Part shown: positions 30,831 through 34,521 of the stretch, piece after piece
Layout: each line of letters starts with the position of its first letter
How positions within the stretch are numbered: position 1 is the first letter of the stretch
DNA from: Actinacidiphila glaucinigra
Lineage (GTDB): Bacteria; Actinomycetota; Actinomycetes; Streptomycetales; Streptomycetaceae
Length of the DNA stretch: 64,000 nucleotides
NCBI RefSeq assembly: GCF_900188405.1
Contig: NZ_FZOF01000009.1
Span: forward strand, 186,001-250,000
Direction of reading: 5' to 3'
The notes under the pieces: model-generated
The model's database searches: none
What the model was told of the DNA's origin: nothing
The model's input: only the letters and a program-made list of their open reading frames with translations
Translations under genes and position numbers: made by a program

Positions 30831-31113
30831 GGGCGGCGGGGCCTCCTGCAGGAGAGGGGGAACGGGGCGTCCGATGCCGCCGTGGTGCCATCGGAAGTTC
30901 GTGCCGGGGTTCCGTCCCGGGACGGCATGGCACGGCGGCGTACCTCGGACCGCGAAGGCGGGCGCGTCGTCCGCGACTTGGCATGTTTCACGCCACGGGA
31001 CGAAGCCCGCGCATCCCATCGCGCCCCCGTGACGTCTGCACGGCCGAAAGGTGACAGCCGGGCGAACGGCGTACGGCGGTCCGGGTGCCCCGGCCCGGCA
31101 CTTCGGTCGTGCC

Positions 31114-31794
31114 TCACCTCCCGATGCGGGCCTCGATGCCGTCGAGCAGGAAGTCGAGGCCGATCCGGAAGGTGTGGTCGGCGTCCAGATGGGCGGCGTC
31201 GCGCACCACCGTGGCCAGGGCGGGGAACCGGCCGGTGGCGAAGGTCCGCTCCAGATAGGACCCGAGCGAGGCCTGCCAGCGCTTCTCGTCCATCCCGGTG
31301 GCCCGTTCGGCACGCCGCTCGGCGACCTCCCGGCGCACCGCGCCGATCGCGTACGCGTTGACCGCGGCGACCACCGGCATGACGGCGTCCACATCGACGC
31401 CGTCCAGTGCGGCCACCACGGCCTCCCCACCGGCCAGCGCGTGCGGCCCGAGCTGGGGCCGCCCGCCCAGGAGGTCGGCGAGCCATTCGTGCTCGTGAAC
31501 GGCGTGCCGGGTGGCTTCGGCGAGAGACCGGAGCACCTCCCGCCGGCCCTCCCCGACCGGCCGGATCTCGGCGTGGACGGCGTCGACCATGAGGTCGAGC
31601 AACTCCTCCTTGCCGGCGATGTAGCCGTACAGCCGCATCGGACGGACGTCCAGCACGGTGGCGACCTTGCGCAGCGACACCGCCTCCAATCCGTCCGCGT
31701 CGGCGAGCCGGATCGCCGCCCGCACGATCAGCTCCCGGCTCAACGGGGCCGGAACGGGTCGATTCGGCGGCTCCGGCCTCTCCCACACCAACAT
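31114..31794 (-). CDS. TetR-family regulator with TetR_C-type domain
   Basis: This 226-residue regulator has the helix-turn-helix IRLADADGLEAVSLRKVATVLDVRPMRLYGYIAGKEELLDLMVDAV at residues 27-72, and an all-helical ligand domain. It has no Shine-Dalgarno site; a TACGGT box lies 7 nt before the ATG, so it may be leaderless. It is divergent from the TetX-like monooxygenase and a 23-bp palindrome fills the gap, so it most likely represses that gene and itself. Confidence 0.9.
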   Translation of the reverse strand: MLVWERPEPPNRPVPAPLSRELIVRAAIRLADADGLEAVSLRKVATVLDVRPMRLYGYIAGKEELLDLMVDAVHAEIRPVGEGRREVLRSLAEATRHAVHEHEWLADLLGGRPQLGPHALAGGEAVVAALDGVDVDAVMPVVAAVNAYAIGAVRREVAERRAERATGMDEKRWQASLGSYLERTFATGRFPALATVVRDAAHLDADHTFRIGLDFLLDGIEARIGR

Positions 31795-31816
31795 GCGGCC
31801 AACCGTACACCGCCTG

Positions 31817-31839
31817 TGATCGATACAGTGTATCGATCA
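31817..31839. promoter_or_regulatory. Perfect 23-bp palindromic operator
   Basis: Arms TGATCGATACA (31817-31827) and TGTATCGATCA (31829-31839) flank a single G, a perfect 11+1+11 palindrome. A third copy of the core, TACGGTGTATCGA, follows at 31841-31853. The site lies between the divergent TetR and monooxygenase starts and covers both promoters. Confidence 0.88.
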
Positions 31840-31865
31840 GTACGGTGTATCGAAGGGAAGCGGTC

Positions 31866-32975
31866 ATGACCATCGCCATCGTCGGAGCCGGCCTCGGCGG
31901 CCTGGCTCTCGCCCGTGTGCTGCACGTGAACGGCATGGATTGCGTCGTGTACGAACGTGAATCGTCCCGCGGTGCGCGCGGTCAGGGCGGCATGCTCGAC
32001 ATCCACTCCGGCCAGCGGGCGCTGCGCGAGGCCGGTCTGATCGACCGGTTCCACGCGATCGCCCGCGGTGAAGGCCAGGACATGCGTCTTCTCGAACCGG
32101 ACGGCACCCTGCTGCTCCAGGAGGACACCCCCGAGGACGCCCCGCTGGAGCGACCCGAGGTCGACCGCGCCGATCTGCGCGACCTGCTGCTGGACTCCCT
32201 CCCCGAGGAAACGGTGCGCTGGGGGCGCGCCTTCGAATCCGCCGACGACGGCGTGCTGCGCTTCGCCGACGGGAGCACGGCGACGTGCGGCCTGCTGGTC
32301 GGCGCGGACGGCGCGTGGTCCCGGGTCCGCACGCTGCTCACCGACGCCCGCCCGGCGCACATCGGCCAGAACATCGTCGAGGTCGGCATTCCCGACATCG
32401 ACCGCACGCACCCCGAACTCGCGGCGATGGTCGGGCGCGGCAACTACTGGGTGCTCGGCGACGGACTGTCGCTCGCGGCGCAGCGCAACGGCGACGGCCG
32501 CGTGCGCATCGGCCTGAGCTTCTACAACACCCCCGAGGACTGGTTCGCCACCAGCGGGATACCCTTCGCCGACCCGGCCGCCGCGCGGGCGCGGCTGATC
32601 GACCTGCTCCGCGGCTGGGACCCGCGGTTCACCGCGCTGATCGCGGCCTGCGACGACACGGTCGTACCGCGGTCGATCGCCACTCTCCCGGTCGGCCTGA
32701 CCTGGCCGTCGACGCCGGGCGTCACGCTGCTCGGCGATGCCGCGCACCTGATGCCCCCGGTGGGGGAGGGCGCCAACATGGCCCTGCTCGACGGCGCCCT
32801 GCTCGGTCTCGCGCTGGCCGCGCACCCGGACGACTTCCCCACCGCCGTCGAGGAGTACGAACGCGAGATGTTCGAACGCACCGGCGCCGCCGCCCGGATG
32901 TCCGCGGAGATACACGAACTGCTGACGTCGCCGGACGCCGCCCAGAAGATGCTCGCGTTCTTCCGACCCGGCTGA
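31866..32975 (+). CDS. TetX-like FAD-dependent monooxygenase
   Basis: This 369-residue flavoprotein starts at ATG 31866 behind GAAGGGAAG. It has the GXGXXG FAD motif IAIVGAGLGGLALARVL, the second FAD motif LLGDAAHLMPPVGEGANMALLDGALLG, and a PHBH-type middle. Blocks GMLDIHSGQRALREAGLI, PLERPEVDRADLRDLLLDSL and LPVGLTWPSTPGVTLLGDAAHL resemble TetX-type tetracycline hydroxylases. It may inactivate a tetracycline or another polycyclic compound. Identification to TetX is by memory, not search. Confidence 0.75.
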   Translation: MTIAIVGAGLGGLALARVLHVNGMDCVVYERESSRGARGQGGMLDIHSGQRALREAGLIDRFHAIARGEGQDMRLLEPDGTLLLQEDTPEDAPLERPEVDRADLRDLLLDSLPEETVRWGRAFESADDGVLRFADGSTATCGLLVGADGAWSRVRTLLTDARPAHIGQNIVEVGIPDIDRTHPELAAMVGRGNYWVLGDGLSLAAQRNGDGRVRIGLSFYNTPEDWFATSGIPFADPAAARARLIDLLRGWDPRFTALIAACDDTVVPRSIATLPVGLTWPSTPGVTLLGDAAHLMPPVGEGANMALLDGALLGLALAAHPDDFPTAVEEYEREMFERTGAAARMSAEIHELLTSPDAAQKMLAFFRPG

Positions 32976-33016
32976 ACACCAGCCGACAGGAGCGGGCGCG
33001 GCAGCCGCCGTCGGAA

Positions 33017-33036: not shown

Positions 33037-34512
33037 TCAGGTCTGGGCCATGTCCACGAAGCGCGAGTAGTGGCCCTGGAAGGCGACGGTGATGGTGGCC
33101 GTCGGGCCGTTTCGGTGCTTGGCGACGATCAGGTCGGCCTCGCCCGCGCGCGGGGACTCCTTCTCGTAGGCGTCCTCGCGGTGCAGCAGGATCACCATGT
33201 CCGCGTCCTGCTCGATGGAGCCCGACTCACGCAGGTCGCTGACCATCGGCTTCTTGTCCGTACGCTGCTCGGGACCACGGTTCAGCTGGGACAGCGCGAT
33301 GACCGGGACCTCGAGCTCCTTCGCCAGGAGCTTGAGGTTACGGGACATGTCGGAGACCTCCTGCTGACGGCTCTCGGGACGGCGCGAGCCGCCCGCCTGC
33401 ATCAGCTGGAGGTAGTCGATGACGACCAGGCGGAGGTCGTTGCGCTGCTTGAGCCGGCGGCACTTGGCGCGGATCTCCATCATCGACAGGTTCGGCGAGT
33501 CGTCGATGTAGAGGGGGGCCGCCGAGACGTCGGGCATGCGGCGGGCCAGCCGCGTCCAGTCGTCGTCGGTCATGTTGCCGGAGCGCATGTGGTGCAGGGC
33601 GACCCGGGCCTCGGCGGACAGCAGACGCATCGCGATCTCGTTGCGGCCCATTTCGAGGGAGAAGAAGACGCTGGGCATGCCGTTGGTGACCGAGCAGGCG
33701 CGGGCGAAGTCCAGCGCGAGCGTGGACTTGCCCATCGCGGGACGGGCGGCGATGACGATCATCTGGCCCGGGTGCAGGCCGTTGGTCAGGGAGTCCAGGT
33801 CGGCGAAGCCGGTGGGCACCCCGGACATCTGGCCGCTGCGCGAGCCGATGGCCTCGATCTCGTCGAGGGCACCCTCCATGATCTCGGAGAGCGGGAGGTA
33901 GTCCTCGCTGGTGCGCTGCTCGGTGACGGCGTAGATCTCGGCCTGTGCGGAGTTGACGATCTCGTCGACGTCGCCGTCGGCCGCGTACCCCATCTGCGTG
34001 ATGCGCGTACCCGCCTCGACGAGCCGGCGCAGGACCGCGCGCTCGTGCACGATCTCCGCGTAGTACTCGGCGTTGGCGGCGGTGGGCACCGCGTTGACGA
34101 GGCTGTGCAGATAGGGGGCGCCGCCGACCCGGGCGAGCTCACCGCGCTTGGTGAGCTCGGCCGCCACGGTGATGGGGTCGGCGGGCTCACCTCGGGCGTA
34201 GAGGTCGAGGATCGCGGCGTAGACGGTCTCGTGGGCGGGCCGGTAGAAGTCGGCACCCTTGAGCACCTCGACAACGTCGGCGATGGCGTCCTTGGACAGC
34301 AGCATGCCGCCGAGCACCGACATCTCGGCGTCCAGGTCCTGCGGCGGTACGCGCTCGAAACCGGCCGCCCCGCGGTCGTCGTCACGGTCGCGGTCGCGGT
34401 CCCGCTCGTCCTTCCGGCGGAACCGGGAGACGGGCAGACGGTCGCCGGGACCGTCCGGCGGGAACGGCGGCTCGCTCCCCCAGTGGTCGTCCGCGGGTTC
34501 GGGCTGGCTCAC
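33037..34512 (-). CDS. dnaB: Replicative DNA helicase DnaB
   Basis: This 491-residue protein is the hexameric replicative helicase. It has an N-terminal domain (PPQDLDAEMSVLGGMLLSKDAIADV), a Walker A site in AARPAMGKSTLALDFARAC and the RecA-like core motif GMPSVFFSLEMGRNEIAMRLL, then VIDYLQLMQAG and SREVS-type conserved blocks. GTG 34512 is chosen: AGGAGG lies 8 nt upstream, whereas the GTG at 34521 would abut that site. The unusually DnaA-box-rich leader lies just upstream. Confidence 0.95.
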   Translation of the reverse strand: MSQPEPADDHWGSEPPFPPDGPGDRLPVSRFRRKDERDRDRDRDDDRGAAGFERVPPQDLDAEMSVLGGMLLSKDAIADVVEVLKGADFYRPAHETVYAAILDLYARGEPADPITVAAELTKRGELARVGGAPYLHSLVNAVPTAANAEYYAEIVHERAVLRRLVEAGTRITQMGYAADGDVDEIVNSAQAEIYAVTEQRTSEDYLPLSEIMEGALDEIEAIGSRSGQMSGVPTGFADLDSLTNGLHPGQMIVIAARPAMGKSTLALDFARACSVTNGMPSVFFSLEMGRNEIAMRLLSAEARVALHHMRSGNMTDDDWTRLARRMPDVSAAPLYIDDSPNLSMMEIRAKCRRLKQRNDLRLVVIDYLQLMQAGGSRRPESRQQEVSDMSRNLKLLAKELEVPVIALSQLNRGPEQRTDKKPMVSDLRESGSIEQDADMVILLHREDAYEKESPRAGEADLIVAKHRNGPTATITVAFQGHYSRFVDMAQT

Positions 34513-34521
34513 CCCTGCCAC

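Follow-up and report, generated by a model that had tools for sequence, protein, structure and literature searches.

A divergent TetR-family regulator and FAD monooxygenase gene pair with a conserved operator in Actinacidiphila glaucinigra: a putative inducible cassette of actinomycetes

All five TetR-family regulators of Streptomyces that were tested with gaps of less than 200 bp, the control ActR included, are described as repressing their neighbouring gene (PMC3511530). As described in the same study, SCO7222 of Streptomyces coelicolor binds three 15-bp operators of 7+1+7 build (TGGAACGNCGTTCCA) before the monooxygenase gene SCO7223, and its repression was shown (PMC3511530). SimR is described as binding two operators between divergent genes, from which it is released by the antibiotic (PMC5812520). 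In the account given for Mycobacterium abscessus, the TetR-family repressor MabTetRx controls MabTetX, a drug-modifying flavin adenine dinucleotide (FAD) dependent monooxygenase (FMO) that is induced by tetracyclines, the inducer being also the substrate (PMC6143652). SmTetX (PDB 8aq8) is reported to modify oxytetracycline, though much of its pocket differs from that of TetX (PMC10327574). Here we describe a related locus of Actinacidiphila glaucinigra, in which a gene for a TetR-family regulator and a gene for a class A FMO are transcribed divergently from start codons that are 71 bp apart. It lies in a stretch of 64,000 nt (positions 186,001 to 250,000 of contig NZ_FZOF01000009.1), called the window below.

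The pair shares with SCO7222/SCO7223 the divergent arrangement of a TetR-family and a monooxygenase gene and the short gap. Three boxes are described for SCO7222; in the window, one box of this make is perfect, one clear and one degenerate. The operator sequence is a different one, and SCO7223 is likened here by its description. MabTetRx/MabTetX is likewise an actinobacterial TetR-repressor/FMO system, but by its description it forms one operon instead of a divergent pair and has a 35-bp operator. The nearest solved regulators are SimR (of SimR/SimX), ActR and PamR2; SimR governs an efflux pump, whereas the regulator of the window adjoins an enzyme gene. AbsH3 (PDB 6n04), the nearest solved FMO, differs as a member of the abyssomicin biosynthetic pathway, and SmTetX, Tet(X), Tet(X4), Tet(X6) and Tet(X7) belong to the same FMO group but differ in residues on the substrate side.

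From the genes, the boxes and their conservation, the family placement, the boundaries and an excess of silent-site identity, all read from the sequence, we infer repression, induction, detoxification and transfer: we put the probability that the pair is a self-contained, inducible, horizontally moving detoxification cassette at about 0.6.

A conserved gene pair around a conserved operator

A scan of GTDB genomes gave 130 relatives of the FMO, of which the best 80 (76-91% identical) were analysed; a few of these loci are shortened by contig ends. Some of the loci used are present twice, L007 and L090 for instance being, to judge by length, the same contig. They come from Streptomyces, Nocardia, Rhodococcus, Amycolatopsis, Saccharopolyspora, Pseudonocardia, Kibdelosporangium, Actinomadura, Nonomuraea and other genera. 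A divergent TetR relative (71-93% identical) stands beside the FMO gene in 75 of the 80 loci, with a gap of 53-106 bp.

As listed in Table 1, the gap in the window holds the perfect palindrome that an earlier note on this DNA had seen between the two genes. When the window was shuffled 100 times, no match to it was obtained, even with up to three mismatches allowed. The further copy of the core that had been claimed is also present, as box O3. The palindrome had moreover been said to overlap both promoters; this received no backing, as a scan of the window for sigma-70 promoters, which leaves other promoter types outside its scope, found none. A terminator scan of the window found none either. 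The boxes take up most of the 71 bp between the start codons. We place the start of the FMO at the ATG, and an alternative GTG at 31845 falls within a box.

Table 1. Features of the locus (positions within the window)
Feature	Position	Strand	Basis
TetR-family repressor gene, 226 amino acids, SimR/ActR/PamR2-like	31114-31794	minus	TetR_C_1, 62.7 bits (cut-off 21)
Weak box O1, tetR-proximal, degenerate here (GTAC at 31805-31808, 18 bp from O2)	31803-31817	no strand	family-wide column conservation
Perfect 23-bp palindrome TGATCGATACA-G-TGTATCGATCA, 11+1+11	31817-31839	no strand	sequence and shuffle control
Main operator box O2, CGATACAGTGTATCG, conserved 15-bp core	31821-31835	no strand	92 distinct intergenic regions and genome scan
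Box O3, CAGTACGGTGTATCG, 17 bp from O2, directly ahead of the ribosome-binding site	31838-31852	no strand	score at offset +17
Likely ribosome-binding site AAGGGAAG, ATG 5 bases on	31853-31860	plus	sequence, inferred
Class A FMO gene, 369 amino acids, kin of AbsH3, SmTetX and TetX	31866-32975	plus	PF01494, 66.7 bits (cut-off 22)
dnaB, replicative helicase gene, tail to tail with the FMO gene (61 bp), outside the cassette, recurrent neighbour	33037-34521	minus	

The conservation of the boxes was followed in 102 gene pairs, taken from the 80 loci and from other searches. Four were dropped for an FMO identity below 75% and six as duplicates, which left 92 distinct intergenic regions. In all 92 the core CGATACAGTGTATCG was matched at 12-15 of its 15 positions, against mostly 7-9 in shuffled regions; the anchor was picked by best match, so that the core score is somewhat inflated, but the neighbouring boxes are unaffected by this. 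The ATAC and the TG past the centre are invariant in all regions. Complementarity of the two arms was found in 75-100% of the regions at positions ±1 to ±7 and in 23-39% at ±8 to ±12, and perfect arms of at least 11 nt in just 2 of the 92. Conservation is thus limited to the inner 15 bp of the palindrome, and because complementarity drops beyond ±7, the perfection of all 23 bp in the window is partly luck. Complementarity rises again further out, in the region of the neighbouring boxes, to 55% (±13) and 74% (±15). A second box exactly 17 bp downstream of the core reached a mean of 10.85 of 15 matches (other offsets tried from +12 to +22: 1.8-5.7), and a weaker one at −17 bp reached 8.63. In three loci (L060, L095, L119), O2 and O3 jointly form a perfect 16+2+16 palindrome.

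In the draft genome (9.8 Mb) the exact core is found just once, consistent with a switch that is local and dedicated. The sole other near-match, with one mismatch, lies at L199 (G000:C29:46075-46089), and the genome scan with the core thus gave no regulon.

Other combinations of regulator, operator and enzyme occur among relatives. Two loci with TetR relatives of 59% identity (L022, L023) have an FMO of only 44% identity and a core of the form ATACATTGTAT / ATACAGTGTAT; here the type of regulator and operator is kept while the enzyme differs. Two FMO paralogues within the genus (L010, L014; about 50% identity) have the SCO7222 operator TGGAACGNCGTTCCA upstream, and no relative of the TetR-family regulator of the window was found within 1.5 kb of these FMO matches. 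FMO subfamilies therefore seem to have distinct regulators.

Kinship of regulator and enzyme with tetracycline systems

The regulator scores well above the cut-off of TetR_C_1 (Table 1) and reaches 22.4 bits with TetR_N (cut-off 24). By sequence, its nearest solved relatives are SimR (164.8 bits), PamR2 and ActR. A structure model with a predicted local distance difference test score (pLDDT) of 78.6 matched ActR with a Z-score of 19.7 (root mean square deviation (rmsd) 3.5, 200 residues aligned), SimR with 19.2 (rmsd 3.1, 214 aligned) and PamR2, tied with these, with 18.9 (rmsd 3.9, 210 aligned); TetR(B/D) followed at about 18. As these values are close, the fold alone is not decisive and the assignment is made by sequence. 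According to the titles of the structure entries, these kin of the regulator were solved with simocyclinone, actinorhodin and pamamycin.

Regulators and FMOs were compared in two alignments (A1 and A2), each built from the window plus 36 loci, namely the 24 most dissimilar ones and one in four of the remainder. An N-terminal arm with the motif VWERPEP..RP ahead of the DNA-binding domain is invariant in all 37 aligned regulators, and its counterpart in SimR reads IWMHPEP. The N-terminal extension of SimR is reportedly used on DNA, going by the title of a study.

The FMO has the class A motifs GAGLGG (residues 7-12), DG (148-149) and GD (290-291) and lies above the cut-off of FAD_binding_3 (PF01494). 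Compared with solved structures, the order of likeness is AbsH3 (51% identity over 362 residues), SmTetX (40%) and the Tet(X) enzymes (33% for Tet(X6/X7)), with Tet(51), Tet(55) and Tet(56) far off. A structure model of the FMO was poor (pLDDT 52.9, predicted template modelling score 0.37), probably owing to a shallow alignment, and was not used for claims on the pocket; a structure search with it had AbsH3 on top (Z 14.5 across 118 substrate-domain residues), with TetX entries near 12.

This kinship leads to the question of whether the enzyme is a true tetracycline destructase that is switched on by tetracyclines, as is MabTetX under MabTetRx. Tet(X) (NF033111) is indeed the top-scoring NCBIfam model for the FMO (2.7e-45), but the score of 155 bits stays far below its cut-off of 750, and with tet_destruct (NF033476; type 2 enzymes, Tet(47)-Tet(56)) 34.8 bits stand against a cut-off of 550. 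The Tet(X) model has three matches in the genome, and each of them falls far short of the cut-off.

Phylogeny, which the earlier note had proposed as a check, was run on a first set of 49 proteins (matches of less than 250 residues were not entered) and on a second set of 40, from which nine had been dropped, L028 for its very long branch and the others for thinning; both trees came with a program warning that long branches met at the outgroup. In the 40-protein tree, the cassette FMO groups (100/100) with TetX, SmTetX, AbsH3 and further paralogues from the genus; another five FMOs of the genus, themselves long-branched, lie outside this group. The enzyme does not, then, fall firmly outside the destructase clade with the aromatic hydroxylases. 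The cassette FMOs form a clade of their own (99/97) with AbsH3 as weak sister (48/58 in the best tree), and a topology test did not reject the cassette and TetX as one clade (p-value of the approximately unbiased test, p-AU, 0.436).

On the substrate side, Q192, R213 and H234 are named as pocket residues of TetX in PMC10327574. In the window these three and N226 correspond to E172, N193, R214 and Q206, respectively. All 37 aligned cassette FMOs have E172, W195, Q206, R207, N208, R214 and W226, and 34 have N193. Q206 and R214 are common to AbsH3, E172 and Q206 to SmTetX, and a glutamate at position 172 is also found in the other paralogues compared; as a whole, the combination E172, W195, Q206, R207, N208 and R214 occurs in none of the four solved enzymes compared.

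On the side of the regulator, the tetracycline-repressor model NF010319 gave 49.7 bits (cut-off 265). H64, N82, H100, Q116, H139 and E147, the drug ligands of TetR(D), are replaced by R, L, a gap, E, A and R, so that none of the six is kept, the alignment being gapped at H100. Two of 17 compared positions are identical, R104 and P105.

The tetracycline reading thus draws on the Tet(X) model as best match, the common group with TetX and SmTetX together with the p-AU value, the two retained positions of the regulator, the oxytetracycline activity described for SmTetX despite its differing pocket (PMC10327574) and the precedent of a TetR-repressed, tetracycline-induced FMO described in M. abscessus (PMC6143652). 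With cut-offs missed and with the TetX residues and the TetR(D) ligands replaced, a tetracycline is possible but not favoured, and we consider this reading unlikely. That the substrate would be a tetracycline held as TetX holds it is, judging from the replaced residues, improbable. Of the TetX-like, drug-inducible cassette put forward in the earlier note, the ligand-inducible module fits the TetX-related FMO, the divergent TetR gene and the conserved operator; a TetX-type destructase or a response to tetracycline is not supported. The logic of a cassette is probably right.

Edges, neighbours and transfer of the pair

When the window was compared with the 80 loci by blastn, similarity stopped near the two stop codons, with medians at 31120 and 32976, as a rule within about 40 bp. 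The quartiles were 31103-31123 on the TetR side and 32975-32977 on the FMO side. Exceptions are the loci without the TetR gene and about a tenth of the loci, in which the match continues into dnaB. No direct repeat that flanks the cassette on both sides, as an integration scar, was found in the window.

At fourfold degenerate sites, identity to the window had a mean of 0.79 for FMO genes (n = 80) and of 0.59 for dnaB genes (n = 28, mostly from Streptomyces), with 0.44 expected from base composition in both cases. In four closely abutting loci of other genera and in G621 (L061, L076, L092, L108, L184), values were 0.73-0.84 for the FMO gene and 0.46-0.64 for dnaB (expected 0.39-0.50). In all seven genomes of other families, the FMO protein is 77-88% identical and DnaB 71-75% (partial matches: DnaB of G430, FMO of G623 and G720). 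To judge from these edges and identities, the pair seems to have spread mostly as one unit between actinomycete lineages, with horizontal transfer as the putative cause.

The presence of the FMO is patchy: it was found in 45 of 394 family genomes at E 1e-100, 29 of these with at least 75% identity, and in 12 of 394 class genomes. Streptomyces sp. SAT1 and Kitasatospora sp. NBC_00039 also carry the pair (L195, L196; FMO 84-85% identical), in both cases on a large linear plasmid. Other oxidoreductase or P450 genes lie within about 6 kb of these plasmid copies, and among annotated neighbours only the pair is common to both. One genome (L123, G162) has two equal-scoring copies on opposite strands, close to either end of one long contig (C1:197703-198812 and C1:8775163-8776272); the chromosome may be linear, with the copies in its terminal inverted repeats.

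These data also bear on the possibility that the FMO acts in the tailoring or catabolism of an endogenous metabolite, similar to AbsH3, with the TetR gene as switch of the pathway. The position of AbsH3 as nearest solved enzyme and weak sister would agree with such a function, as would the oxidoreductase or P450 genes near the plasmid copies. A pathway gene would not readily account for a similar unit that ends near two stop codons, for the patchy presence across family and class genomes or for plasmid copies that have just the pair in common, and neighbours other than dnaB recur in at most 13 of the 80 loci. This possibility therefore appears quite improbable to us. The count of neighbours comes from a crude call of open reading frames (ORFs) in the 80 loci, which gave dnaB 25 times, one upstream ORF 13 times, another 7 times and others at most 4 times. 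Further recurrent ORFs are presumably MATE-like (9 of 80 loci) and acetyltransferase-like (8 of 80).

By tblastn, dnaB lies within about 3 kb of the FMO gene in 28 of the 80 loci, 9 of them outside Streptomyces, and these are dispersed across the FMO tree. In 13 of the 80, no more than 150 bp separate the stop codons of the two genes. A tail-to-tail arrangement with 3-61 bp between the stops is found in Streptomyces and several other genera (the window, L050, L061, L067, L068, L076, L085, L092, L101, L108, L184). No common junction between FMO gene and dnaB was obvious across the abutting loci. The data do not support that the 3' end of dnaB was transferred along with the cassette: silent identity in the last dnaB codons was 0.90 in L108 and L184 (10 sites each), 0.10 in L076 and in between in the others. 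Among 30 dnaB loci of the genus, an FMO gene was present within 1.5 kb in just three.

Vertical inheritance of an old gene pair next to dnaB under unusually strong constraint, with many losses and no recent transfer, would explain the adjacency to dnaB in Streptomyces, several genera of Pseudonocardiales and Nonomuraea, which suggests an old place, and the about equal likeness of FMO and DnaB within the family. It is hard to reconcile with the fourfold identity that is higher for the FMO gene than for dnaB in closely abutting loci outside Streptomyces, or with the near relative G025, whose DnaB is 99% identical and whose cassette (91%) lies 2.8 Mb from dnaB. With 29 of the 75 rows adjacent to dnaB, the FMO tree moreover requires 19 changes of adjacency, a count that comes without a shuffled control. 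We regard purely vertical descent as very improbable. The data agree with repeated landing beside dnaB as well as with a fixed locus whose alleles are exchanged.

A putative detoxification cassette

The mechanism that we propose combines these elements. A dimer of the TetR-family regulator would occupy the boxes that fill the 71-bp gap, O2 strongly, then O3, and O1 weakly, and would hold back the expression of both genes. The inducer, a hydrophobic and probably polycyclic natural product, would enter the cell, bind to the SimR/ActR-like pocket and free the repressor from the DNA. The FMO, with FAD, NAD(P)H and O2, would then hydroxylate and so inactivate the inducing compound. The regulatory half of this mechanism is proposed on the precedent of the Streptomyces regulators as described in PMC3511530, and the chemical half because of the kinship with SmTetX and TetX, which modify drugs, and the account of MabTetX (PMC6143652).

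Several findings weigh against the cassette as outlined. A matching TetR gene is missing from the flank in 5 of the 80 loci (L066, L087, L107, L109, L114; FMO 81-87% identical), and three of the seven genomes of other families (G430, G561, G623) are without a close TetR relative (best 39-42% or none). The FMO is broken, partial or internally shortened in 3 of 35 genomes of the genus (L008 in G019, L009 in G005, L035:4529-4999 in G007), so that it is dispensable; no TetR relative was found beside L008 and L009. The title of the AbsH3 entry speaks of a reductase of a biosynthesis pathway, and a role in resistance is therefore not given by kinship. With regard to transfer, four genomes of the own family have no FMO excess (FMO 84-89%, DnaB 86-89%), G025 shows little excess at fourfold sites (0.91 for the FMO gene versus 0.86 for dnaB), and in L110 the relation is reversed (0.63 versus 0.77), but with dnaB on just 22 sites. 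The four orders on the FMO tree need 17 changes (minimum 3, shuffled 36). Order labels are thus clustered and some descent is vertical, transfer and descent being mixed. Many branches of this tree are weak, with 41 of 78 inner branches drawn open. A search of the open-access literature found no report on this cassette family, nor data on its activity, binding or induction.

More specifically, and only tentatively, we suggest that an integrase-free two-gene cassette, cut close to its stop codons, may circulate among actinomycete orders and settle repeatedly tail to tail with dnaB. By way of E172/W195/Q206/R207/N208/R214 it might sense and oxidise a natural compound of wide occurrence other than a tetracycline. 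The 3' flank of dnaB could be a landing hotspot, or a fixed locus at which the cassette is overwritten time after time by foreign alleles.

In view of the TetR/FMO precedents the system is of a known kind and its history unusual; its edges, its spread and its neighbour dnaB are the part worth following. Looking like TetX and acting on tetracycline are kept apart at this locus, where an annotation by similarity alone could overcall resistance. The pair would offer a naturally regulated combination of sensor and enzyme for finding the natural product that drives its spread. It may also serve as a case of a small regulated unit that moves between orders with sharp edges and a favoured neighbour.

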